Positions 6,032 to 50,831 of a stretch of DNA of 53,344 nucleotides are shown here, in pieces. A program made the translations under genes and the position numbers. The notes beneath the pieces are model-generated. The model saw only the letters and a program-made list of their open reading frames with translations. It ran no database searches and was not told the origin of the DNA. The first letter of the stretch is position 1, and each line of letters begins with the position of its first letter. The stretch spans positions 1-53,344 of the forward strand of contig DASSPH010000102.1 of the NCBI GenBank assembly GCA_035699745.1, given 5' to 3'. The DNA is from Vicinamibacterales bacterium (GTDB lineage: Bacteria > Acidobacteriota > Vicinamibacteria > Vicinamibacterales > 2-12-FULL-66-21).

Positions 6032-6039
6032 ATTATACC
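6032..6039. promoter_or_regulatory. Bidirectional overlapping -10 element ATTATACC
   Basis: Read on the minus strand, 6037-6032 is TATAAT, a perfect -10 for the dehydrogenase at 5997. Read on the plus strand, 6034-6039 is TATACC, pointing at the membrane-protein gene. The hexamers overlap with a 2-bp offset, as at 22507, 28366, 33848 and 48747. The plus-strand gene also has TAGGAT at 6049-6054, ending 6 nt before its GTG, which may be its true -10. Confidence 0.5.
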
Positions 6040-6060
6040 TTCATGATGTAGGATTCCGCA

Positions 6061-6789
6061 GTGCACGCGATGCGGAGCGGGCTGACGCGCGTGGCGTCGG
6101 CGCCAGCCGTACTTGCCGGCGCGATTGCCGTGCTGTGGTGGCTCGAGGGTCCCTGGAATCCGCGAATCATGATCGCGGCGTTCCTGCTGTGGGCGTTTCT
6201 TTCGGGCGGCGTCATCGATCGATACGCGCGCGGCCGCCCGACGCGGGCGCGCGGCTTCTTCGCGGCCTGCGGCGCCCACGTCTCCGCGATGATCCGCCTC
6301 GGACTCGCCGTCGGGCTCGCCCATGCCGCTCTCCATGCCACCCTGGGCTCCCGGGTGGACAATCCGTACGTGATGGCGGCGGCGATCGTCCTGCTGCTCG
6401 TGATCTCGGCGGTGGGCGTCTACGGGCAGATCCGCCTCGTGGTCGAGGATCGCCGCAGCGCCCTCGGCGCGCTGCTCGCCGGAGCGCGATTTGCGCGACG
6501 CAATCCCGCGGCCCTCGCGCTGGTCGCGGTGTTCGCCGCGCTCTTGTGGGGAGCGACGGCGGCGATGGCGGCGCTCGAGCCGGCGCCGCCCGACGGCGCG
6601 GCCGCCGCGCTGCACGTGGCGGTGCGGCTCGCCGCGGTCGCCTATCTTGCGCTGGCGCTGCATGCCGCCGGCGTCGTGCTGTTCCAGTCGCGTCTCGCCC
6701 ACGCCGGCTACACCGCCGGTCCGCCGCACGAGTGGCCCGACTCCCCGGCCGCGGAAGCGATCGCCAACGCGGCCCACGTTCCGCGATGA
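6061..6789 (+). CDS. Multi-pass membrane protein of unknown function
   Basis: 242 aa, GTG start. About six hydrophobic segments are visible: near residues 12-28, 36-52, 75-95, 105-125, 148-168 and 185-210. Conserved-looking features are [19 protein letters not shown] and a basic [18 protein letters not shown] loop. No family recognised with certainty. TAGGAT at 6049-6054 ends 6 nt before the GTG, so the mRNA may be leaderless. The TGA stop overlaps the ATG of the HD-GYP regulator (ATGA, 4 bases), implying an operon and perhaps a role in the same signalling path. Confidence 0.75.
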
Positions 6790-21079: not shown

Positions 21080-22498
21080 TCAGTCTATCAGGAGGCGGCG
21101 TGCCAGCGCGTAATGGGCGGCGAGCGGTCCCTGCCCGTCGAGCTGCCGCGCCGCGGCGGCCAGCGCTCCCCCGGCGTGATCGCGAAACGCGCCCGGATCG
21201 GGAAACCCCTTGCGCGGCTCCAGCCTCGACAGGCGGGCGAACGCCAGCGCGGCATCGGCGTTGCCCACGAACGGCTGCCGGCGCGCGCGCAGCAGCCCGA
21301 CGTCCTCGGGCGTCGCGGCGCGGTCGAAGAAGCCGCCGGTGCGCTCGTCGCGCATGTCGCGGACGACGAGGTGCCCGAGCTCCTCCGCCATCATCCGGTA
21401 CGGCTCGAGGCCGCTCAGGTCGTGCGCGTCGAGGAGCGCGGCGATCGCCGCGACGTGATCCGCGAGCAGACCGCGCACGCGAGCCGAGCCGTCGAAGTAG
21501 TGCGCCACCCCCAGCGCGGGCCGGTAGCACAGCAGCAGGACGCGCTCGAACGAGGCGAGCGCTTCCCGCGCGAGATCGCTGTCGTCGAGCGCGGCGGCGG
21601 CCCTCAGCAGCGCGCCGGCGGCGGCGGCATTGCTGTCGACGTAGAACACCGCTTCCGCGTCGCTCCCGTGGTATCCCCCGGCCTCCGCTCTCAGCACGGT
21701 CGTGATGAAGGTCGCGATCGCGCGGGTACGTGCGGCGTCCGCCGGATCGTTCCACTCGGCCGCTGCCTCGGCATACACGCGGAGCAGCGACGCATTCGTC
21801 TCGAGCAGCTTCTCCTGATGCGGGAGCTGCCAGTCGCGGGTGGTGGCGTATCGATAGAAGCCGCCGCGCGCGCGGTCCCACAGACCGCCCTCCGCCATGG
21901 CATCGAGCGTGCGGCGCACCACCAGACGCCAGCGCTCGTCGCCGGTCTCGTGGAACAGACCCATCGCGAGATGCAGCGGCGCGGTGTGCGGAAACTTCGG
22001 TTCGATCCCGAAGCCGCCGTGTTCCTCGTCGAAGGCCGCGAAAATGGCGTCGATGAGGTCGCCGCTTGCCGCTGCCGGGTCGCCGCCGTCCGCTGTCCGC
22101 TCGCCGCTGGCCGCTGGCCGCTCGCCTTCCGCCGGCCGCCCGCCGCTGTCCGCTACCCGCGCGACCGCCGCCGCGACCTGGGTCAGCACGCCGGTCATCC
22201 GCTCGACGGGCACGAACGTACCGCCGGTGATGAGCGCGCCGCTCGCGGTGAGGAAGGCGGTCGTCGGCCAGCCGCCGAGGTTGTACCGCTCGTTGATGTC
22301 CGGCCGGCGATCGGTGTCGACGCGAACCGGAACGAAGCGCTCGTGGATGAGCGCCGCCACGGCCGGGTCGGCGTACGTCGTCCGGTCCATCTCGTGGCAG
22401 GCGCGGCACCAGGCGGCGGTGATCGACAGGAGGACGGGCTTCCCTTCGCGCGCCGCGCGCGCGAAGGCCTCGGCGTCCCACGGCAGCCAGCGGACCAT
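21080..22498 (-). CDS. Thioredoxin-domain protein, short YyaL/SPATA20-like (DUF255)
   Basis: 472 aa from the ATG at 22498, chosen over a GTG at 22504 because TATAGT on the minus strand (22512-22507) ends 8 nt before it. The thioredoxin-like domain (about 1-130) has WCRACHEMDRTTYADPAV with a CxxC, and GGWPTTAFLTASG. The rest is an alpha/alpha-barrel-like region (FGIEPKFPH, GLWDRARGGFYRYATT, LPHQEKLLETNA). Family members are usually near 650-700 aa, so this copy is short. Residues about 113-147 are low-complexity and come from a degenerate heptamer array (22062-22156). First gene of the four-gene minus operon. Confidence 0.85.
   Translation of the reverse strand: MVRWLPWDAEAFARAAREGKPVLLSITAAWCRACHEMDRTTYADPAVAALIHERFVPVRVDTDRRPDINERYNLGGWPTTAFLTASGALITGGTFVPVERMTGVLTQVAAAVARVADSGGRPAEGERPAASGERTADGGDPAAASGDLIDAIFAAFDEEHGGFGIEPKFPHTAPLHLAMGLFHETGDERWRLVVRRTLDAMAEGGLWDRARGGFYRYATTRDWQLPHQEKLLETNASLLRVYAEAAAEWNDPADAARTRAIATFITTVLRAEAGGYHGSDAEAVFYVDSNAAAAGALLRAAAALDDSDLAREALASFERVLLLCYRPALGVAHYFDGSARVRGLLADHVAAIAALLDAHDLSGLEPYRMMAEELGHLVVRDMRDERTGGFFDRAATPEDVGLLRARRQPFVGNADAALAFARLSRLEPRKGFPDPGAFRDHAGGALAAAARQLDGQGPLAAHYALARRLLID
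22062..22156. repeat. Degenerate heptamer array (CCGCTNN) inside the YyaL-like gene
   Basis: About thirteen consecutive 7-mers can be read, e.g. CCGCTGT, CCGCTCG, CCGCTGG, CCGCTGG, CCGCTCG, with one 4-base interruption at 22139-22142. Because 7 is not a multiple of 3, the protein shows a Ser/Gly/Ala/Glu-rich stretch without an exact residue repeat. It lies between the thioredoxin-like and barrel-like parts. Confidence 0.75.
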
Positions 22499-22506
22499 GG
22501 CCACGT

Positions 22507-22514
22507 ACTATAAT
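22507..22514. promoter_or_regulatory. Bidirectional overlapping -10 element ACTATAAT
   Basis: Plus strand 22509-22514 is TATAAT, ending 7 nt before the ATG at 22522. Minus strand 22512-22507 is TATAGT, ending 8 nt before the ATG at 22498. The two start codons are only 24 bases apart, leaving no room for leaders or ribosome-binding sites. The exact reverse complement, ATTATAGT, serves the divergent pair at 48738/48765. Confidence 0.65.
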
Positions 22515-22521
22515 GATCCGG

Positions 22522-23010
22522 ATGCTCGTGCTGCGGTACGCGGCGCTGCTGGCGCTCGTCGTATGGGTGGGCGGCCTGGTGGCGCTCGGCGGAATCGCGG
22601 CCCCTTCGGTCTTCGACGTGATCGCCGAGCGGCAGCTCGCCGACGGGCGGGTGCTGTCGGGCGCGCTGTTCGGCGAGATGCTCGCGCGCTTCACCATTCT
22701 CAGCTACCTGTCGGGCGGCGCGCTGCTGCTGACGCTGATTCTCCGGCGCATTCTCGGACCGCGGCCGCATCGCTTCGCCTGGCGCGCCGGCATCACAGCG
22801 GTGATGCTCGCGGCCAGCGCCTACGGATCGATCCGGATCGCGGGACGCATCGGCCAGCTGCAGCGCGAGATCGGCGCCGCGCCGTCCTCGCTGTCCGAAG
22901 GAGACCCGCGGCGGGTGGAGTTCGGGCGGCTGCACGGCATCTCGACCGCGCTGCAGCTCGTGCCGCTGCTCGGCGGCCTCATGCTCATCTACTGGGAAAT
23001 CAAAGAGTGA
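22522..23010 (+). CDS. DUF4149-like membrane protein
   Basis: 162 aa from the ATG at 22522 (165 aa from the ATG at 22513, but that ATG lies inside the TATAAT). Four hydrophobic segments: about residues 3-25 (AALLALVVWVGGLVALGG), 55-75, 88-105 and 138-156. The layout and motifs such as GEMLARF and EFGRLHGISTALQLV match DUF4149/TMEM205-like proteins, of unknown function. Its TGA overlaps the GTG of the GAF gene (GTGA), so the two are coupled. Confidence 0.78.
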   Translation: MLVLRYAALLALVVWVGGLVALGGIAAPSVFDVIAERQLADGRVLSGALFGEMLARFTILSYLSGGALLLTLILRRILGPRPHRFAWRAGITAVMLAASAYGSIRIAGRIGQLQREIGAAPSSLSEGDPRRVEFGRLHGISTALQLVPLLGGLMLIYWEIKE

Positions 23011-23474: not shown

Positions 23475-24485
23475 ATGGCACACACCATCACGCTCATCCC
23501 CGGCGACGGCATCGGGCCGGAAGTCACGCAGGCGGTGCTGCGCATCTTCACGGCCGCCGGGCTGCAGATCGACTGGGATCGCCACGACGCCGGCGTGATC
23601 GCCTACCAGCGCCACGGACAGACGCTGCCGGCGGCGCTGCTCGATTCGGTCAAACGCAACAAGGTCGCGCTGAAGGGTCCGGTGACGACGCCGATCGGCG
23701 AAGGGTTCACCAGCGTGAACGTCGGCCTGCGGAAGGCGCTGGACCTCTACGCCAACCTGCGGCCGGTCAGCAACCTGCCGGGCGTGGCGAGCCGCTTCGA
23801 GAACGTCGACCTGGTGATCGTCCGCGAGAACACCGAGGATCTCTACGCCGGGCTCGAGCACGAGATTGTGCCCGGCATCGTCGAGAGCCTGAAGATCATC
23901 ACCGAGAAGGCGTCGACGCGGATCGCGCGGTTCGCGTTCGAGCACGCGCGCCGGTCCGGGCGCACGCGGGTGACGGCGATCCACAAGGCCAACATCATGA
24001 AGCTGAGCGACGGGCTGTTCCTCGACAGCTGCCGCAGGGTGTCCCGCGAGTTCATCGACGTGGCCTACGACGAGCGGATCGTCGACGCGGCATGCATGCA
24101 CCTGGTGATGCACCCGGAGAAGCTCGACGTGCTGCTGTTGCCCAACCTGTACGGCGACATCGTGTCGGACCTGTGCGCCGGGCTGGTGGGCGGGCTGGGG
24201 GTCGTACCGGGGGCCAACGTCGGCGTCGACAGCGCGGTGTTCGAGGCGGTGCACGGGAGCGCGCCCGACATCGCCGATCAGAACCTGGCGAATCCCACGG
24301 CGCTGCTCCTCTCGGGGCTGCTGATGCTCGAGCACATCGGCGAGCGCGATCGAGCGCAGCGGATCCGCGGCGCACTCGGTCGGGTCCTTGCCGCGGGGGC
24401 CGTCCGGACGCGCGATCTCGGAGGCACGGCGTCCACCACGGAATTCACGGATGCGGTCATCCGGGAGCTCGAAAAGACGGTATAG
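23475..24485 (+). CDS. NAD-dependent isocitrate dehydrogenase
   Basis: 336 aa, ATG three bases after the GAF stop. Beta-decarboxylating dehydrogenase family: IPGDGIGPEVT at the N-terminus; the substrate loop FTSVNVGLRKALDLYANLRPV has Ser and Asn at isocitrate-binding positions; then VIVRENTEDLYAGLEH, IHKANIMKLSDGLF, YGDIVSDLCAGLVGG and FEAVHGSAPDIA. Length and loop match the short NAD-dependent IDH (IDH3-like) and not isopropylmalate dehydrogenase. It converts isocitrate to 2-oxoglutarate in the TCA cycle. Confidence 0.9.
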   Translation: MAHTITLIPGDGIGPEVTQAVLRIFTAAGLQIDWDRHDAGVIAYQRHGQTLPAALLDSVKRNKVALKGPVTTPIGEGFTSVNVGLRKALDLYANLRPVSNLPGVASRFENVDLVIVRENTEDLYAGLEHEIVPGIVESLKIITEKASTRIARFAFEHARRSGRTRVTAIHKANIMKLSDGLFLDSCRRVSREFIDVAYDERIVDAACMHLVMHPEKLDVLLLPNLYGDIVSDLCAGLVGGLGVVPGANVGVDSAVFEAVHGSAPDIADQNLANPTALLLSGLLMLEHIGERDRAQRIRGALGRVLAAGAVRTRDLGGTASTTEFTDAVIRELEKTV

Positions 24486-27123: not shown

Positions 27124-27186
27124 GCGCTCGTCGTTCAACAAGAGCGCGTGAGCGCTCGTCGTTCAACAAGAGCGCGTAAGCGCTCA
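27111..27186. repeat. 28-bp tandem triplicate forming three hairpins between convergent genes
   Basis: Units at 27111-27138, 27139-27166 and 27167-27186 (third partial). Each has the stem GAGCGC/GCGCTC with loop GTAA, GTGA and GTAA. The plus-strand transcript would form GNRA tetraloop hairpins, and the single difference between complete units keeps the GNRA pattern. The first unit contains the stop of the zinc-ribbon gene and the third abuts the stop of the M20 peptidase gene, so it may end transcription from both sides. Confidence 0.85.
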
Positions 27187-28353
27187 GCGGCACCAGTCCC
27201 GCGCCAGCGCCGCGAGCGCGTCGCGGCAGCGCAGCACGTCCTCGATCTCCACATACTCTTCGGTGCTGTGAAGGCCCGCTCCGCCGGGCCCGAACAGCAC
27301 CGAAGGAATCCCCGCCCCCCCCAGCACCGCCGCATCCGTCCAGAAACTCATGCCGACAGGCTCGCCCGCCCGCGAGGCAGACGAGGCGGCCCCCGCGTCG
27401 CCGCGCGCGGGCAGCGTCTCGAGCGCACGCCGCAGCGCGACCGGCAGCGCGTGGCTCGCCGCGAGCTCGTAAGACGGACGCGCGAACATCGGCGTCAGCG
27501 ACGCCTCGAACTCGGGGTCTTCTTTCGTGAGCCGCGCGAGCAGCTGCTGCAGTTCGGCGCGCACCCGCTCGTCCGTCTCCCCCGTGACGGTGCGGCGTTC
27601 CAGCTTCAGCGTGCAGCGATCCGGATAGCTGCTCAACTCGCGGCCGCCTTCAATCAGCGACGCGTGCAGCGACGCGGTGCCCATCAGCGGATGCGGCGCC
27701 GCCGCCTGCAGCGACCGATCGATCCGCTCGAGCCCGTGCAGCACGCGGCCCATGCGCATGATCGCGTCGCGGCCGTCGAGCGGACGGCTGCCGTGCGCCG
27801 CCCGGCCGCGCGTTTCGATCTCGAACCAGGCGAATCCCTTGTGGCCGATCGCGATGCGCAGATCCGTGGGCTCGGTCACCACCGCGGCGTCGGCGCGCCA
27901 CCGCGTCACCAGCGCGTCGGCGCCGATGCTCGCGTACTCCTCGTCGACCACCGCCGCGACGATCAGCCGCCCCGCCGGCAGTCCGTCGCGCGCGACGACG
28001 CGCGCCGCGTCGATCATCGCCGCGACGCCGCCTTTCATGTCCTGCGCGCCGCGTCCGTAGAGCCGTCCGCTTCGCTCGACCGGATCGAACGGCGCGGCCA
28101 TCCCCTCCACGCCGACGGTGTCGAGGTGCCCGCAGAGCATCAGCGACCGGCCGCGGCCGCGGCCTTCGAGCACGCCGATCACGTTGGGCCGTCCGGGCGC
28201 CGCCTCCTGGATCTCGACGTCGAGCCCGAGGCTGCGCAGGTGGTGCGCGACCGCGTCGGCCATCGCCGCCTCGCCGCGCGCGCCCGGCACCAGCGCCGGA
28301 TTCACCGAGTCGATCGCGACGAGTTGTCTCAGCAGCCCGACAGCCGGATCCAT
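27184..28353 (-). CDS. M20 family metallopeptidase (ArgE/DapE-like deacylase)
   Basis: 389 aa from the ATG at 28353; an ATG at 28365 adds four residues, but GATACT on the minus strand (28371-28366) places transcription between them. Metal-binding features: His and Asp in MLCGHLDTVG, Asp in YGRGAQDMKGGVAA, the Glu pair in VVDEEYAS, and a late His in LHSTEEYVEIEDV. The dimerisation domain lies in the middle (GFAWFEIETRGRAAHGSRP). Likely removes an acyl group from an amino acid or cleaves a dipeptide; substrate not predictable. Terminates in the 28-bp hairpin repeat. Confidence 0.9.
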   Translation of the reverse strand: MDPAVGLLRQLVAIDSVNPALVPGARGEAAMADAVAHHLRSLGLDVEIQEAAPGRPNVIGVLEGRGRGRSLMLCGHLDTVGVEGMAAPFDPVERSGRLYGRGAQDMKGGVAAMIDAARVVARDGLPAGRLIVAAVVDEEYASIGADALVTRWRADAAVVTEPTDLRIAIGHKGFAWFEIETRGRAAHGSRPLDGRDAIMRMGRVLHGLERIDRSLQAAAPHPLMGTASLHASLIEGGRELSSYPDRCTLKLERRTVTGETDERVRAELQQLLARLTKEDPEFEASLTPMFARPSYELAASHALPVALRRALETLPARGDAGAASSASRAGEPVGMSFWTDAAVLGGAGIPSVLFGPGGAGLHSTEEYVEIEDVLRCRDALAALARDWCR

Positions 28354-28365
28354 GACAAGCCTCAT

Positions 28366-28373
28366 AGTATCGT
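28366..28373. promoter_or_regulatory. Bidirectional overlapping -10 element AGTATCGT
   Basis: Plus strand TATCGT (28368-28373) ends 6 nt before the SDR ATG at 28380, so transcription would start on the ATG. Minus strand GATACT (28371-28366) ends 12 nt before the ATG at 28353. Weaker matches to consensus than the other sites, but with the same 8-bp geometry. Confidence 0.45.
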
Positions 28374-28379
28374 TTAGGC

Positions 28380-29174
28380 ATGTCGCTGAACGGCCGCGTC
28401 GCCGCGATCACCGGAGCCTCGTCCGGCATCGGCCTCGCCACAGCGACGCACCTCGCCCGCGAAGGGGTGGCGGTCGTCCTCGGCGCGCGCCGCACGGCGA
28501 CGCTCGACGATGTCGCGGCGCGGATCACCGCCGCCGGGGGGCGCGCGACGGCGGTGACGCTCGACGTCTCGCGCGAGCAGGACCTCGACGCCCTGGTCGC
28601 GACCGCGGCGCGCGAGTTCGGCGGTCTCGACATCATGATCTGCAACGCCGGCTTCGGCTACTACGGCACCATCGAGCAGACGCCGGCAGACGTCATGCAG
28701 CGGATGATGGACGTGAACTACATGGGCACGTTCTACGGCGCGCGCGCGGCGCTGCCGATCTTCCGCGCCCAGGGACGCGGCCATCTGATCTTCGTGTCCT
28801 CGATCGTCGGGCGGCGCGGCATCGCTTACATGGGCGGATACACCGCCACCAAGGCGGCGCAGGCGGGACTCGCGGAGTCGCTGCGCACCGAGTTCGCCGG
28901 CACGGCGATTCACGTCTCGTGCGTGTATCCGATCTCGACGCGGACGGAGTTCCACGACGCGATGTCGCGCGACTACGGCCATCGCATCAGCGGTCTCGGG
29001 CCGAGGCAGTCGGTCGACGACGTCGCGCGGGCGATCGTCCAGTGCGTCAAGCGGCCGCGCCCCGAGGTGTATCCGCACCGCCTGTCGCGCGCGCTGGCGG
29101 TCATGAACCATGTCGCGCCGGCCTTCACCGATCGGTTCGTGAAGAAGTTCGGCCGCCGCCGCGATGCGGTTTGA
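28380..29174 (+). CDS. Short-chain dehydrogenase/reductase
   Basis: 264 aa. Classical SDR: cofactor motif TGASSGIGLA (about residues 13-22), ICNAGFGYYG at beta-4, catalytic Ser in FVSSIVGRRG and Tyr/Lys in YTATKAA. The acidic residue for NAD is not obvious and GARRTATL suggests NADPH. The C-terminus (VMNHVAPAFTDRFVKKFGRR) resembles SDRs acting on lipid-like substrates, but the substrate is unknown. The last 11 bases overlap the FGE-like gene. Confidence 0.9.
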   Translation: MSLNGRVAAITGASSGIGLATATHLAREGVAVVLGARRTATLDDVAARITAAGGRATAVTLDVSREQDLDALVATAAREFGGLDIMICNAGFGYYGTIEQTPADVMQRMMDVNYMGTFYGARAALPIFRAQGRGHLIFVSSIVGRRGIAYMGGYTATKAAQAGLAESLRTEFAGTAIHVSCVYPISTRTEFHDAMSRDYGHRISGLGPRQSVDDVARAIVQCVKRPRPEVYPHRLSRALAVMNHVAPAFTDRFVKKFGRRRDAV

Positions 29175-32942: not shown

Positions 32943-33839
32943 TCAGGCTGCTTTGCCGCGCTTCCATTCCTCGAACAGGCGCGCCGCGTTGCCCGCCACG
33001 GAACTGAGCGTCGGCGCCCAGCCCAGGGCGCGGGCGCGCGGGCTGCGGACGATCTGATCGAGCGCGAGCGCATCGGCGTACGGGCCGAGCTTCTTGCGGG
33101 CCTCGGCCGGCGGCACGTGCCGGATGCTCGGCTCGGTCGGCGCGTGCTCGCAGATCGCGCGGACGATCTCGTTCACCGTTTCGGCGCCGTCGTCGGTGGC
33201 GTGGAACACGCCGGAGGCCGAGGGGGTGCCGACGATCCGCGCATACAGCTCGCCGAGATCGCGTTCGTAGATCAGCGGCCAGTGGTTCTCGCCGCTGCCG
33301 ACGACGCGGACGAGGCTGTTGGCGGCGTCCTTCACGATGTCGCCGACGATGCCGCGCGAGCCGCCGTAGACGATCCCCGGACGGATGACCACGGGGCGCG
33401 CGCCTTCCCTGGCGAGCTCGAGCACGCGGTTCTCGTGCGCCGGACGCCACGCCGCGATCTCGATGGGATTCACCGGCGCGGTCTCGTCGATCGGCGCGGG
33501 CGCGGGCCCCAGCACCCAGATGCCGGACGTGTAGACGAGGAAGCGCCCCGCCTTCGGCGGCAGCCGCGTCAGCGTCTCGACCGCAATCGCGTCGAGCTGG
33601 CGGGCCTTGACGCCGCTGTCGGCGGCGGCATGAACCGATCCGTCGGCCGCGGCGGCGGCATCGCGCCACGTCGCGGGCTGCATGACGTCGCCGAGCACCG
33701 GTTGCGCGCCGCGCGCCTGCACGCGGGCCGCACCTTCGCTGTTGCGGACCAGCGCATCGACGCGGTGACCGCCGCGCACGAGCGCGTCGAGTACCGCCGC
33801 CCCCACGTAACCGGTTCCGCCCGTCAAGAACACGCGCAT
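32943..33839 (-). CDS. NAD-dependent epimerase/dehydratase family protein (atypical SDR)
   Basis: 298 aa from the ATG at 33839; a TTG at 33848 would lie in the promoter hexamer. Rossmann motif TGGTGYVGAAV (residues 7-17), GDVMQPATW and VYTSGIWVLG. The usual YxxxK pair is not evident; the corresponding region reads WRPAHENRVLELA, so it belongs to atypical extended SDRs whose members may bind NADP without the standard chemistry. VIRPGIVYGG and GVFHATDD are the substrate-domain motifs. Substrate unknown. Confidence 0.85.
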   Translation of the reverse strand: MRVFLTGGTGYVGAAVLDALVRGGHRVDALVRNSEGAARVQARGAQPVLGDVMQPATWRDAAAAADGSVHAAADSGVKARQLDAIAVETLTRLPPKAGRFLVYTSGIWVLGPAPAPIDETAPVNPIEIAAWRPAHENRVLELAREGARPVVIRPGIVYGGSRGIVGDIVKDAANSLVRVVGSGENHWPLIYERDLGELYARIVGTPSASGVFHATDDGAETVNEIVRAICEHAPTEPSIRHVPPAEARKKLGPYADALALDQIVRSPRARALGWAPTLSSVAGNAARLFEEWKRGKAA

Positions 33840-33847
33840 TGTTTTCA

Positions 33848-33855
33848 ATCATAAT
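33848..33855. promoter_or_regulatory. Bidirectional overlapping -10 element ATCATAAT
   Basis: Minus strand TATGAT (33853-33848) ends 8 nt before the ATG at 33839. Plus strand CATAAT (33850-33855) ends 9 nt before the ATG at 33865. The two start codons are 26 bases apart, so both mRNAs should be nearly leaderless. Confidence 0.6.
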
Positions 33856-33864
33856 TCAGGACCC

Positions 33865-36441
33865 ATGACGCGACGCACGCTGCTCGACTTCTTCGAGGAC
33901 GTCACCCGCGACGGGTCGAAGGACGCGCAGTTTCTCGTGTACGACGACGGCTACCGCACGTGGTCGTGGACGTACGGAGAGCTGGCCCGCGCGTCGCACG
34001 CGTTCGCCGCGCGGCTGAGGTCGAACGGCATCACGGCGGGCCAGGCCATCGCACTCTGGAGCGAGAACCGTCCGGAATGGGTCGCCGCGCTGTGGGGCGC
34101 GCTGCTCGAAGGCGTCGTCGTCGTGCCGATCGACTATCGCGCGTCGGCCGAGTTCCTGCTGAAGGTGGCGTCGATCGTCGATGCGAGGGCAGTCCTGGTC
34201 GGCGATGCGGTGGACGCCGCGGCGATCGCCGGCAGCCGGACGATGTGGAGCGTCGGGGCGATCTTCCGGCAGAAGCCGGACGCCGCGGACAGTGCAGCAG
34301 GCGGTGGAGCGGAAGGCATCAGCGCGCAGACTACCGCCGAGATCATCTTCACGTCGGGGGCGACGGCGGAACCGAAGGGCGTGGTCCTGACGCACAGGAA
34401 CATCCTCGCCAACATCGTGCCGATCGAGCGCGAGATGGCGAAGTACCGGAAGTACACGCTGCCGTTCCGCCCGATCCGGTTCCTGAACCTGCTGCCGCTC
34501 AGCCACATGTTCGGACAGGCGATGGCGACGTTCGTGCCGCCGATGCTTCCCGGCGTCGTCGTATTCACGCGCAGCTACGCGCCGGACGACATCGTGCGGC
34601 AGATCAAGCACCGCCGGATCTCGGTGCTGGTGTGCGTGCCGAAGATCCTCGAGGTCCTCAGGGACTACATCCTGCGCGTCGCGCCCGAAGCGGCGGAGCC
34701 GCCGCCCGCCGGCACGCACTGGGCGAAGCGGTGGTGGCATTACCGGCGGATCCATCGCCTGTTCGGGTTCAAGTTCTGGGCGATGGTGGTCGGCGCGGCG
34801 CCGCTCGATCCCGAGCTGGAAGCGTTCTGGGGGCGGCTCGGGTTCCTCGTCGTGCAAGGCTACGGCCTGACGGAAACGGCGCCGATCGTGACGCTCAATC
34901 ATCCGCTGCACGCGCGGCGCGGCGCGGTCGGCAAGCCCATCGCCGGCGTCGAGATCAAGATCGCCGAGGACGGCGCGATCCTCGTGCGCGGCGAGAACGT
35001 CACCACCGGCTACTTCAACGCGCCGGAGGCCACCCGGGAGGCGTTCGCCGGCGGCTGGTTCCACACCGGCGACATCGGCGAGCTCGACGCCGAAGGGCGG
35101 CTGATGATCCGCGGGCGGAAGAAGGAAATGATCGTGACGCCCGAAGGGCTGAACGTGTTTCCGGAAGACGTCGAGCGCGCGCTGCTGCAGCAGCCCGGCG
35201 TGGTCGACGCCGCCGTCGTCGGGGCGCCGGTCGCCGGCAGCACCGCGGAGCGGGTGCAGGCGATTCTCGTGCTCGCGGCGGGCACGGACACGGACGCGGT
35301 GGTGCGGGCCGCGAACGCGCAGCTCGGCGATCATCAGAAGATCCGCGCGTCTGCGATCTGGCCCGGCAGGGAGCTGCCGCGGACCGAAGGCACGCGCAAG
35401 CTGAAACGGCGGGAGTTGCGCAACTGGTTGTCGGGCCAGTCACCGGCGGGCCCGGCCGTCAGGCCGGGGGCGCGCGACGTCCGCAGCGTTCTCGAGCGGT
35501 TCGCGCCGGGCCGGACGCTCGAGCCGGCGACCACGATCGACGAGCTGGGCCTGACCTCGCTCGAACGGGTCGAGTTGATGATGGCGCTCGAGGAGACGTT
35601 TCAGGTGACGGTCGACGAGACGGCGTTCAGCGCCGCGGCGACGATCGCGGATCTGGAGCGCCTGGTCGAGCCGGCAGCCTTTACCGGCACGCCCGGCGTC
35701 GCCGGTTCGTCGACCGCAGCCGACCTCACACCCGGGCCCGGTGGTGGATCGAAAGAGATCGTCTTCCCGTCGTGGAACCGATCGCTGCCGGCGCGGATCG
35801 CGCGGCGCATCAGTCTGCCGACGTGGATCCTGCCGCTCGGCCGGATCTTCGCGCGGGTGACGGTGAGCGGGCTCGAGCACCTGCAGGGCATCGATGGTCC
35901 GGTCATCTTCGCCGCGAACCATCAGAGCCACTTCGACGGGCCGGTGATTCTCGACTCGCTGCCGCCGCAGTGGCGCTACCGCACCGCGCCGGCGATGATG
36001 AAGGAGTTCTTCAACGCGCATTTCTTCCCGGAACGGCACACGCGGCGGGAGTGGTTCACCAACAGCCTGAACTACTACCTCTCGGCGCTGTTCTTCAACG
36101 CCTTCCCGCTGACGCAGACGAGCACGGGGACGCGGCAGACGCTGCGCTATGTCGGCGAGCTGGTCGAGAACGGCTATTCGATCCTGATCTTCCCGGAAGG
36201 GCGGCGCACCGAAACGGGGGACATCGCGCGGTTTCAGCCCGGGGTCGGGATGATCGCCTCACGCATCGGGGTGCCGGTGGTTCCGGTCCGGCTCGACGGG
36301 CTGGATCAGGTGCTGCCGCGGCACGCCCGGTTCCCCGCCGTCGCGCGTGCGCGCTGCGCCTTCGGCCCGCCTATCGTGTTGACCGGCAACGACTACGCCG
36401 CGCTGGCGGCGCGCGTCGAGGCCGCCGTTCGCGCACTGTAG
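33865..36441 (+). CDS. Trifunctional acyl-AMP ligase / acyl carrier / PlsC acyltransferase fusion
   Basis: 858 aa. An adenylating domain (about 1-500): ATP loop FTSGATAEPKGVVLTH (about residues 160-175), GYGLTETAPI (about 333), FHTGDIGELD (about 399) and RKKEMIVTPEGLNVFPED. A carrier domain (about 530-615) with the phosphopantetheine Ser565 in ELGLTSLERVELM. After a Pro/Gly linker, a PlsC domain (about 655-855) with NHQSHFDG (N685) and FPEGRRTETGD (about 776). The design suggests activation of a fatty acid, loading on the carrier arm and transfer to an acceptor lipid, all inferred. It is longer than the Aas-type two-domain ligase/acyltransferase. Inner-membrane association likely. Confidence 0.9.
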   Translation: MTRRTLLDFFEDVTRDGSKDAQFLVYDDGYRTWSWTYGELARASHAFAARLRSNGITAGQAIALWSENRPEWVAALWGALLEGVVVVPIDYRASAEFLLKVASIVDARAVLVGDAVDAAAIAGSRTMWSVGAIFRQKPDAADSAAGGGAEGISAQTTAEIIFTSGATAEPKGVVLTHRNILANIVPIEREMAKYRKYTLPFRPIRFLNLLPLSHMFGQAMATFVPPMLPGVVVFTRSYAPDDIVRQIKHRRISVLVCVPKILEVLRDYILRVAPEAAEPPPAGTHWAKRWWHYRRIHRLFGFKFWAMVVGAAPLDPELEAFWGRLGFLVVQGYGLTETAPIVTLNHPLHARRGAVGKPIAGVEIKIAEDGAILVRGENVTTGYFNAPEATREAFAGGWFHTGDIGELDAEGRLMIRGRKKEMIVTPEGLNVFPEDVERALLQQPGVVDAAVVGAPVAGSTAERVQAILVLAAGTDTDAVVRAANAQLGDHQKIRASAIWPGRELPRTEGTRKLKRRELRNWLSGQSPAGPAVRPGARDVRSVLERFAPGRTLEPATTIDELGLTSLERVELMMALEETFQVTVDETAFSAAATIADLERLVEPAAFTGTPGVAGSSTAADLTPGPGGGSKEIVFPSWNRSLPARIARRISLPTWILPLGRIFARVTVSGLEHLQGIDGPVIFAANHQSHFDGPVILDSLPPQWRYRTAPAMMKEFFNAHFFPERHTRREWFTNSLNYYLSALFFNAFPLTQTSTGTRQTLRYVGELVENGYSILIFPEGRRTETGDIARFQPGVGMIASRIGVPVVPVRLDGLDQVLPRHARFPAVARARCAFGPPIVLTGNDYAALAARVEAAVRAL

Positions 36442-47292: not shown

Positions 47293-48738
47293 TCAGCGCG
47301 ACGCGGTGGACGACGGCTTGCGCATGAACTGCGCGATTCCCGGCTCGGCCATCAGCTTCTCGACGGCGTCGATCTCCGACGGCACGAACGCGGACATGTT
47401 CTCGTAGCCGCTCTCCGTGATCACGATCATGTCTTCGAGACGGATGTAGACGCGATCGTCCGGAATGGTCAGCGCCGGTTCGATGGTGAACACCATGCCC
47501 GGCCGATAGCCGGAAAAGTTCTTCGAGACGTCATGGACTTCCATGCCCACCATGTGGCCGAGGGTCGCGTTCGGCCGCGGCGACGCCAGCCGCGCCCGGT
47601 AGCTCTCGACGAAGCGCACCGCCGCATCCCGGTTCTTCTGGCTGCGGAACCCGTGCGACGCCATCGCGTCGTCCATCTTCCGGACGACGTCCTTCAGGAT
47701 GTCGCCGGTGGCGCCCGGGCGGATGGACGTCATGATCGCCTGATACAGCTTCACGTAGATGCCGTACAGCTCGCGCTGATCGGGCGTGAACTTGCCGTTC
47801 GCCGGGAACATGCGCGTCACGTCGGAGGTGTAGTACTGGTAGTCGGGGGCGTAGTCGAAGAGCACGAGGTCGCCGGATTTCAGCTGCGCCTGCGCGGCGT
47901 GGTAGTGCGGCCAGGCGGCGTTGGTGCCGGTGGCGACCAGCCCGTAATAAGCCGGGCCCTGCGCGTTGTGCTTCTTGAAGATGTAGTCGCCGATCGCCTC
48001 GATCTCGTACTCGTACATTCCCGGCTCCGCCGAGCGCATCCCTTCCATCAGCGCCAGGCCGGCGATTCTGGTCGACTCGCGCAGCAGGGCGATCTCGCGC
48101 GCGCTCTTCACCATCCGCAGCTCGTCGAGCACGTCGTCGAGATTCTCGAACCGGGCGCCCGGCGCCTTCTCCGCCAGGCGTGACTTGAAGAACTCCTCGC
48201 GCGAGCCCGGCAGGTCCCACGGATCGGCGGCCCTGGCGCGGGCGTGCGCCGCGGCGCGATCGGGCGTGCCCATCAGCGTCGTCTCGCCGCGGACGGCCGT
48301 GTAGATCGTCCGCCCGGCGAGACTCGCGGCAAAGGCGTCGAACTCCTCGCGCGGCCGCACCCGCTCGATGCCCGACAGTTGCTCCGCCGCGGGCCCGGGC
48401 CCGAGCAGCGGCCCTTCCGAGCGCTCCATCTGCGGGTTGTTCGGCGGCAGGTACAGCGTCGACGTCTTCGTCCGCCCGTCGATCGCGAGGATCGCGCGCG
48501 GCGTGATGACGCCGGTCAGATAGTAGAACTGATTGCCTTGACGGAACTTCTCGTACGCAGAGGTCTCGGTGGCGCCCTGCAGCACGGCGACTCCGTCGCC
48601 GATCGTCTGCAGCACCTTGGCCCGCCGCGCGGCGAACTCCTCTTTCGGGAGCGAGGTCGAGAACAGCGGCGGCTGCGCCGAGACGGTTGCGAACACACCG
48701 CCGGCCACACAAGCCAGGACGAGCAGATGGCGCTTCAT
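47293..48738 (-). CDS. Secreted M24 metallopeptidase (Xaa-Pro aminopeptidase family)
   Basis: 481 aa. Signal peptide [21 protein letters not shown]. The N-terminal creatinase-like domain has [18 protein letters not shown]. The pita-bread domain has metal ligands in [21 protein letters not shown] (two Asp), His in [11 protein letters not shown] and Glu in [11 protein letters not shown], with a final Glu in [10 protein letters not shown]. It removes N-terminal residues preceding proline from peptides. The TATAAT on the minus strand (48752-48747) ends 8 nt before the ATG. It diverges from prolyl oligopeptidase, another proline-directed peptidase. Confidence 0.93.
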
Positions 48739-48746
48739 GACCAGCG

Positions 48747-48754
48747 ATTATAGT
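48747..48754. promoter_or_regulatory. Bidirectional overlapping -10 element ATTATAGT
   Basis: Minus strand TATAAT (48752-48747) ends 8 nt before the M24 ATG at 48738. Plus strand TATAGT (48749-48754) ends 10 nt before the GTG at 48765. It is the exact reverse complement of the element at 22507-22514. Both genes handle proline-containing peptides, so a shared promoter would co-express them. Confidence 0.65.
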
Positions 48755-48764
48755 GGGAGACACG

Positions 48765-50831
48765 GTGCCCGTCCGCTATCCGCCTGCCCGCGTCGATCCC
48801 CTCGTCGAAGTGCTCCACGGTGTCGCGGTCGCGGACCCCTATCGCTGGCTGGAGGACGACGGCAGTCCCGAGACGCGCGCCTGGGTCGACGCACAGAACG
48901 CGCTCACGCGATCGATGCTCGACGGCCCGGCGCGCGACGCGCTCGTCGAGGAGCTGACGCGGCGCTTCGATTATCCGCGCACCGTCGCCGCGTATCGCCG
49001 CCGCGACGTCTACTTCTTCAGCCACAACCCGGGACTGCTCAACCAGCCCGTGCTCTACGTGCGGCGCGGCTGGAGCGGCGCGCCCCGCGTGCTCCTCGAT
49101 CCCAACCGCCTGAGCGGCGACGGGACGACGGCGCTGACGGCGATCGCGGCCTCGCCCGACGGATCGCTGATCGCGTACGCGATATCCGAACACGGCAGCG
49201 ATCGGCAGACGATCCGCGTCCGCCGCGTCGAGGATGGGGCCGATCTGGACGATCGGCTCGCGTGGGTGAAATTCGCGAGCATCGCATGGACGGCCGACAA
49301 CACCGGGTTCTACTACCTCCGCTTCCCGGAGCCGGGCAGCGTTCCGCCCGAGGACGAACAGTATTTCGGGCGCATCTTCTTCCACCGCTGCGGCGACGCG
49401 CAGGCGGCGGACGCGCTCGTCTTCGAGAAGCCGGAGGAAAAGGAGATCGTGCCGCTCGTCCACGTATCCGACGACGACCGCTACGCGGTCATCGTCGCGC
49501 AGCGCGGCGCCAGCGACGACAGCGAGGTGTATCTGATCGATCGCCGCGTGGACGCCGCCCCGCGCGCGTTGTTCCGGGGCTTCGACGCCGCCTATGACTT
49601 CATCGAGTCGGCGGGCGGCCTGCTCTACTTCCGCACGACTCGGGACGCGCCGATGGGGCGCGTCGTGTCCGTCGATCCGTCGCATCCGGCTCCGCTGCTG
49701 CGCGAGGTGGTGCCCGAAGGTCCGCATCGGCTGTCGAGCGTGGCGATGGCGGCCGGCTCGCTGGTCGCGGTGTTCCTCGAGAACGCCAGCGATCGGATCG
49801 TGCGATTCGCGCTGGACGGGTCGCGGCTGGGGGCGATCGAGCTTCCGGAGATTGGCACCGTCGTCACGCTTGACGCACATACGGATCGCGACGAGATCGT
49901 CGTGACCTTTGCCTCATTTACGACCCCGCCGTGTGCATTCAGATCGGCAGGCAGCTCCGGCCTCGAGGCCGCAGATCCACTGCCGCGAGACGTTCCGCCG
50001 AAGGGCGGGAGCGATCTACGGCTCCCTTCGCAGGCGTATCGCACCACCCAGGTCTGGTACGAGAGCAAGGACGGGACGCCGGTGTCGATGTTCCTCGTGC
50101 ACCGCGCCGGCCTCCCGCGCGACGGCGAGCGCCCGGTTCTGCTGAGCGGCTATGGCGGGTTCAACATCAATCGCACGCCCGCGTACGACCCGGGGAATTT
50201 CCCGCTGCTCGATCGCGGCGGGATCTTCGCCCTCGCGAACCTTCGCGGCGGCGGCGAGTACGGCGAGGCGTGGCACCGCGCCGGCATGCTCGAGTGCAAG
50301 CAGAACGTGTTCGACGATTTCATCGCCGCGGCGGAGTACCTGATCGGCGAGCGCTACACGCGCCCCGACCTGCTCGCAATCGAAGGCGGGAGCAACGGCG
50401 GCCTGCTCGTCGGCGCGGTGATGACCCAGCGTCCCGAGCTGTTCGGCGCCGTCCTCTGCCGCGTGCCGGTGGCGGACATGCTGCGCTATCACCGGTTCAC
50501 GGTCGGGCGGTTCTGGATTCCCGAGTACGGCTGCGCCGACGATCCGGACCAGTTCCCGTACCTGCTCCGCTACTCGCCGTACCACAACGTGCGCGAAGGC
50601 GTGGCCTATCCGCGGACGATGATCATGACCGCCGATACCGACGACCGCGTCGCCCCCGGGATGGCGAAGAAGTTCGCGGCGCGCCTGCAGGCCGCCGGCG
50701 GGGGCGGGCCGGTTCTGCTGCGGGTGGAGACCCGCGCGGGGCACGGCGCCGGCAAGCCGATCGCGAAGGTCATCGAGGAGGAAGCCGACATGCTGGCCTT
50801 TCTCGGCGTCGGCGCACTGCGAATGCCCTGA
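48765..50831 (+). CDS. Prolyl oligopeptidase (S9A)
   Basis: 688 aa from the GTG at 48765; a GTG at 48753 lies inside the -10 hexamer. N-terminus [28 protein letters not shown] is diagnostic. A beta-propeller spans about 70-400, then the alpha/beta hydrolase domain with catalytic Ser in [11 protein letters not shown], Asp in [11 protein letters not shown] and His in [10 protein letters not shown]. It cleaves short peptides after proline. Between propeller and hydrolase, the segment coded by about 49931-50036 (rich in Ser, Gly, Pro and Asp) contains three palindromes and looks inserted. No signal peptide, so cytoplasmic. Confidence 0.95.
49958..50026 (+). repeat. Palindrome cluster inside the prolyl oligopeptidase gene
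   Basis: CGGCCTCGAGGCCG (49958-49971) is a perfect 14-bp palindrome. CCGCC-GAAG-GGCGG (49995-50008) and GGGAGC-GATCTACG-GCTCCC (50007-50026) are two further hairpins that share bases, so they are alternative structures. The segment is in frame and encodes a linker-like peptide. It may be a small palindromic element inserted in the gene; no second copy was seen in this window. Confidence 0.6.

Follow-up and report, generated by a model that had tools for sequence, protein, structure and literature searches.

The intergenic region around position 22507 raises the question of whether one −10 core can serve two divergent genes whose start codons lie only 24 bp apart, with practically no 5′ leader on either side. 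The analysis described here makes it likely that a number of short divergent gene pairs, in this bacterium as well as in many relatives from its order, use two-way core promoters with two leaderless genes. The answer concerns a part of such pairs, and it involves two geometries.

Sequence data and definitions

The window, i.e. the whole stretch of 53,344 nucleotides analysed, corresponds to contig C102 in genome G000 (6.30 Mb, 110 contigs, GC content about 70%), which belongs to a bacterium of the Vicinamibacterales. Named relatives recognised by way of the conserved gene at 23475–24485 comprise Acidobacteria bins labelled gp6 and a bin of Luteitalea sp., a genus of the Vicinamibacterales. For tests within this genome 1.61 Mb of G000 was sampled, and the relatives G008 and G014 were sampled in stretches. 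Gene calling relied on codon log-odds and took no account of promoter information. The sampled 1.61 Mb of G000 contains 179 divergent pairs, of which 28 with a gap ≤45 were testable. For the held-out test the window was excluded, the sampled stretches of G000, G008 and G014 were pooled, and one gene per divergent pair was used.

Two arrangements of TANNNT hexamers on opposite strands are distinguished throughout. The 8-bp form ANTATANT has offset 2 and predicted start sites 21 bp apart, while the 10-bp form ANNNTANNNT has offset 4 and predicted start sites 23 bp apart. By the same geometry, a separation of 18 bp corresponds to offset −1, i.e. TANNNTA.

Candidate sites in the window

According to the earlier note, the same 8-bp geometry occurs at five sites of the window, here named S1 to S5. 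Their features are as follows:

22507–22514, both strands: S1, shared −10 octamer ACTATAAT; TATAAT on the plus strand (22509–22514) and TATAGT on the minus strand (22512–22507), offset 2
22522–23010, plus strand: S1 plus gene, DUF4149 protein (PF13664); ATG at 22522, predicted leader 1 nt
21080–22498, minus strand: S1 minus gene, thioredoxin-like DsbH/DUF255 domain (PF03190); ATG at 22498, predicted leader 2 nt
28364–28373, both strands: S2, shared −10 decamer ATAGTATCGT; TACTAT on the minus strand (28369–28364) and TATCGT on the plus strand (28368–28373), offset 4; starts at 28353 and 28380
28380–29174, plus strand: S2 plus gene, short-chain dehydrogenase (PF00106); predicted leader 0 nt
27184–28353, minus strand: S2 minus gene, M20 peptidase (PF01546); predicted leader 4 nt
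33848–33855, both strands: S3, ATCATAAT; TATGAT on the minus strand, imperfect CATAAT on the plus strand; starts at 33839 and 33865
32943–33839, minus strand: S3 minus gene, NAD-dependent epimerase family (PF01370)
33865–36441, plus strand: S3 plus gene, AMP-binding / PP-binding / acyltransferase protein
48747–48754, both strands: S4, shared −10 octamer ATTATAGT, offset 2; starts at 48738 (ATG) and 48765 (GTG)
48765–50831, plus strand: S4 plus gene, prolyl oligopeptidase (PF02897, PF00326); GTG start, predicted leader 4 nt
47293–48738, minus strand: S4 minus gene, aminopeptidase P, M24 (PF00557, PF05195); predicted leader 2 nt
6049–6054, plus strand: S5, −10 hexamer TAGGAT, 12 nt before the GTG at 6061
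6037–6032, minus strand: S5, TATAAT as a separate element; the minus leader would be 28 nt

For S1, the two hexamers, their offset and both start codons are confirmed, and the start-to-start distances of 24, 27, 26 and 27 reported for the first four pairs are likewise correct. The recurrence of one 8-bp geometry is found at 22507 and 48747, and breaks down elsewhere. The plus hexamer at 33848 is weak, lacking the T at −12, and S3 does not pass the strict TANNNT pair test; its octamer ATCATAAT is also found in L146. The octamer AGTATCGT at 28366–28373 was rejected as the core of S2, as the minus strand would read GATACT, which is no TANNNT; the true pair is the 10-bp decamer at 28364. S5 (6032–6039) was also rejected as a shared leaderless promoter, since the plus strand has no T at −7 and a −10 of its own, TAGGAT, precedes the plus gene. 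Overlapping −10s on opposite strands, by which bidirectional promoters are defined, are thus present at 22507, 28364 and 48747. A TANNNT placed some 12 nt ahead of the start codon, the hallmark of leaderless genes, is found at S1, S2 and S4 as well as genome-wide.

The exact ANTATANT occurs twice in the window against 0.17 expected, and this number was reached in 3 of 100 shuffles. The wider motif ATNATANT occurs four times against 1.2 expected, which was reached in 6 of 100 shuffles. At S4, a GGGAG (48755–48759) is located 5 nt before the GTG at 48765, inside the predicted promoter. It could be a Shine-Dalgarno site, should transcription begin farther upstream.

The leaderless −10 signature of the genome

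Among 326 first or divergent genes, TANNNT starts at −15, −14, −13 and −12 in 3.7, 2.8, 2.5 and 5.2% of cases, respectively. Elsewhere upstream the values are mostly 0.3–1.5%, apart from 2.5% for hexamers beginning at −4, whose final T belongs to the start codon itself. EM seeded with TATAAT detected a TANAAT-like element within −30 to −6 in 21% of 1170 genes. About two thirds of these elements lie at −16 to −12, which puts approximately 14% of the 1170 genes at leaderless distance. In the main text of Zheng 2011 (PMC3160421), leaderless genes are given for three of three Acidobacteria genomes, with a mean of 13.3%. A clean −10 was recovered by EM from the full gene set of G000 and from that of G008, and largely so from the close-divergent genes of G000, while most subsets, and G014, yielded no clean −10.

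The leaderless −10s of G000 also show an extended form, with G at −14 in 0.51 of the 137 that belong to tandem genes (gap ≥20) or divergent genes (gap >45); A occupies this position in 0.17 of the same 137. In close-divergent pairs G(−14) drops to 0.23 of 31 leaderless −10s (p 0.003), in a comparison that includes the window and counts both genes of each pair. No clear −35 element was found in leaderless promoters, neither in the tandem and far-divergent set (0.17 vs 0.12 ± 0.03 shuffled) nor in the close-divergent set (0.06 vs 0.13 ± 0.06 shuffled). SD-like 4-mers precede 0.28 of first or divergent genes and 0.27 of internal genes.

Shared −10 elements in close divergent pairs

A comparison of close divergent pairs with shuffled sequence revealed an enrichment in G000. 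Here, 7 of the 28 pairs with a gap ≤45 carry dual-leaderless overlapping −10s, against a mean of 0.64 and a maximum of 3 in 200 base shuffles. Seven other letter patterns gave 0–2 hits each in the same 28 pairs. No local excess was seen in the sampled stretches of G008 (0 of 14 close pairs) and G014 (1 of 14, shuffle mean 1.03). Three of the seven dual pairs have offset 2, three have offset 4 and one has offset −1, the last having TTG and GTG starts and being doubtful. Three of the seven are the discovery sites inside the window. The 1.61 Mb contain 15 ANTATANT octamers, of which three lie between coding-verified starts at 6–10 nt (two in the window, one outside); for the control TNATATNA there are eight octamers, none of them between two coding-verified starts. 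The corresponding figures for the 10-bp form are 3 of 168 against 1 of 714 for its control, and offset −1 is found nine times in this genome against zero for its control. One dual-leaderless pair is located at G000:C22:23688-23716 (in L217) and has the core AAGTGTATACTT. This core or its reverse complement also occurs between CAT and ATG in G001, G005, G009 and G011, members of the same family.

The most serious alternative is that these are one-way leaderless promoters. The near-palindromic TANNNT would then only look symmetrical, and the divergent gene would use a leadered promoter inside its neighbour. Tandem genes of G000 lend this explanation some weight, as their leaderless −10s also overlap an antisense −10 in 12 of 62 cases at gaps ≥20 and in 11 of 36 at gaps <20. 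However, in the held-out test such overlaps are commonest in close divergent pairs. They accompany 13 of 20 leaderless −10s at gaps ≤45, 15 of 46 at the intermediate gaps of 46–120, and 35 of 159 in the comparison set of tandem genes and divergent genes with gaps >120 (p 1.6e-4 for close pairs against the comparison set). Ten of the 13 overlaps have offset 4, two have offset 2 and one has offset −1. An A at −16, the sole extra base that offset 4 needs, is present in 10 of 20 close-divergent −10s against 19 of 159 (p 1.7e-4). Leaderless genes themselves make up 27 of 72 close-divergent genes in the held-out set, against 80 of 643 tandem genes with gaps ≥20.

These counts also bear on how general the arrangement is. 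The 8-bp core had been proposed as the standard solution for divergent genes, which is too strong for 7 of 28 tested close pairs among 179 divergent pairs. Nor is there a single 8-bp geometry, as the 10-bp form is equally frequent in G000 (3 vs 3) and leads in the held-out set (10/20 vs 2/20). A two-way leaderless core would accordingly be a minority solution with two geometries, a reading well supported by the sequence comparisons.

Conservation at individual sites

In the whole-order survey, the S1 gene is present in 96 of 162 genomes. All 13 regions that contain both genes, the window's own included, carry A[CT]TATAAT, and 11 of them the perfect palindrome ATTATAAT. The extrapolated start-to-start distance across these 13 regions varies from 20 to 162. 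The plus leader measures 0–2 nt in 12 of the 13; in L009 no in-frame start was found. On the minus side, an in-frame start (ATG, TTG or GTG) within ≤6 nt is present in 8 of 13 regions, and 7 of 13 have both starts at this distance. The octamer is also kept in the five regions that have no near minus start, so its conservation is no proof of minus-strand use. The start at 22522 is favoured over the in-frame ATG at 22513, because in L005 and other orthologues the ATG contained in TATAATG does not share the reading frame of the gene.

At position −14 of S1, an A is found in 13 of 13 regions against 0.17 in the 137 other leaderless −10s, although the plus −10 hexamer does not itself require that A, which argues against a promoter working in one direction. 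L014 and L030 speak for the one-way explanation, since they retain ATTATAAT, with A at −14, despite extrapolated minus starts 162 and 128 nt away, respectively. Two loci with weaker, partial thioredoxin-protein matches (L277 and L286) also carry ATTATAAT. S1 loci were further compared according to whether a divergent gene is near (27 loci, all but 12 of which were classified by the caller), with results that point both ways: L287 and L280, whose divergent starts were called at distances of 133 and 159 nt, carry C at −14, but L014 and L030 keep the A.

S2 is less well conserved. Its decamer ATAGTATCGT recurs in two of ten relatives (L095 and L100), with the minus start >6 nt away in both. The other eight have no overlapping pair, as the one-way explanation would have it; in seven of these eight a one-way TANNNT stands just before the plus start, and six of the eight have a one-way TATTAT. 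At S4, both relatives found with both genes retain ATTATAG, and two close starts are present only in L157.

Distribution in the order and phylum

The 162 genomes of the order were searched with the pattern CATN{6,10}ANTATANTN{6,10}ATG. The dual-leaderless 8-bp arrangement was matched at 173 sites in 93 genomes, in a count that includes orthologous sites more than once. The reversed control gave 19 sites and a wrong-spacing control (N{16,20} on both sides) gave 17. The offset-2 site is absent from 69 of the 162 genomes, G008 and G014 among them. A one-sided control, with CAT at 16–20 and ATG at 6–10, was matched 69 times forward and 66 times in reverse, 135 in total, and therefore only part of the 173 sites can be truly dual. 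If all CATs of the one-sided matches were there by chance, about 118 of the 173 would also be chance, leaving about 55. Among the first 30 loci listed (families f1 and f6), both matched ATGs open coding-like frames in 19 and fail to do so in 11, and scaling this rate to 173 gives about 110. The number of truly dual 8-bp sites in the order is thus estimated at roughly 55 to 110.

In several of the one-sided matches a CCTCC stands next to the CAT, which therefore looks like a real leadered start with a Shine-Dalgarno site; such a pair would combine a leaderless with a leadered gene. Such pairs, and the frequency of one-sided matches in general, are what the one-way explanation predicts. On the other hand, given one leaderless start, a partner at 6–10 nt is about 2.5 times commoner than one at 16–20 (173 vs 69 and 66). 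Weighed together with the held-out overlaps and the A at −14, this makes the one-way explanation unlikely, though it retains a real share of the probability.

The other two explanations fare worse. A regulator that binds palindromes could use the octamer as its operator, in which case it would not be the promoter of both genes; the perfect palindrome ATTATAAT and its strong conservation at S1 are in line with this. Yet the genes flanking the sites in the window are unrelated, the sites hold the −10 spacing to the starts while positions 2 and 7 vary, and the 8-bp and 10-bp forms have only the −10 bases in common, which makes an operator very improbable. Chance is the least probable of all, for although the five sites were a small sample picked from one window, which as the discovery set holds three of the seven dual sites of the 1.61 Mb, and although the wider motif is only modestly in excess there, the held-out and order-wide tests stay significant.

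Offset 4 is also in excess across the order, with 1271 matches against 494 for the control (2.6 times). For offset −1 (TANNNTA) no excess was found in the 162 genomes (704 vs 702), where the reversed control has a core without TA and its count may be inflated. Phylum-wide, the pattern was matched in 209 of 396 genomes. Two families show no excess over the control, namely f24 (43 genomes, 18 vs 24) and f38 (38 genomes, 11 vs 7). Family f21, with five genomes of about 1.9 Mb, has 27 matches against 0, the strongest excess of the three families tallied. The trait thus looks clade-specific.

Proposed mechanism and implications

The notion of a shared two-way −10 with leaderless mRNAs, put forward in the earlier note, is supported both in the bacterium's own genome and across the order, at the level of sequence. 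Placement, overlap, enrichment and conservation of the −10 elements are properties of the DNA itself. In the mechanism proposed, a single −10 core of 8 bp (ANTATANT) or 10 bp (ANNNTANNNT) would be read by RNA polymerase from either strand, so that both strands would be transcribed, from start sites 21 or 23 bp apart. Counted from the first T of the −10, the start codon would follow about 12 nt downstream, and the mRNAs would be translated without a leader. As the 5′ end of each transcript would then coincide with the start codon of its gene or lie only a few nucleotides from it, about 23–27 bp could serve both genes. In close pairs, the G at −14 would be replaced by an A at −14 or −16, which, read on the other strand, is the T at −7. 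The core would have room for only one polymerase at a time; polymerases would exclude each other, and the pair is probably balanced by their competition.

A broader interpretation is more tentative and somewhat less likely to be right than wrong. It combines a shared −10 in the 21- or 23-bp geometry, no clear −35 and no leaders, upstream contacts within the first codons of the partner gene, and expression of the two genes tied by polymerase competition, into one clade-specific form of organisation.

If the mechanism holds, 23–27 bp would contain the core promoters and the translation starts of two genes. To our knowledge, this would be among the most compact two-gene arrangements. It would join two features that have been studied separately, yields predictions of start sites that can be tested, and could provide a natural system in which to examine how polymerases compete when 5′ untranslated regions are absent. 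It also carries a warning, as start-codon annotation and promoter searches restricted to non-coding DNA can miss such pairs.

Comparison with known systems

Warman, Grainger and colleagues (PMC12825309, PMC10268837) have described bidirectional promoters in E. coli and Salmonella in which, as at the sites presented here, the −10s overlap on opposite strands. In E. coli, the polymerases at such promoters exclude each other (PMC12825309). The defining range of 7–25 bp between start sites includes the 21 and 23 bp predicted here. A separation of 23 bp, that of the predicted 10-bp form, is common in the E. coli/Salmonella set, whereas the available portions of these two papers do not name the 21 bp of ANTATANT as a distance. 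The commonest separation in that set is 18 bp, which shows no order-wide excess here (704 vs 702). The main texts of both papers make no mention of leaderless genes.

Conversely, the leaderless genes described by Zheng 2011 (PMC3160421) and Zhong 2025 (PMC12340547) have their −10 about 12 nt before the start codon, as do those analysed here, and the main texts of both papers make no mention of divergent or bidirectional use. Within the open-licence literature, including PMC3848588, no leaderless two-way promoter in bacteria was found in the available portions of the papers. The closest arrangement comes from Mycobacterium tuberculosis, for which Cortes 2013 (PMC3898074) reports that closely juxtaposed divergent promoters are common; one figure legend of that paper presents a divergent pair with leaderless mRNAs on both sides. 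In contrast to the present case, the available portions of that paper do not describe an overlapping −10 shared by two promoters. Two-way promoters and leaderless genes are thus each known, and it is their fusion in one core that, judged from this literature, appears to be new.
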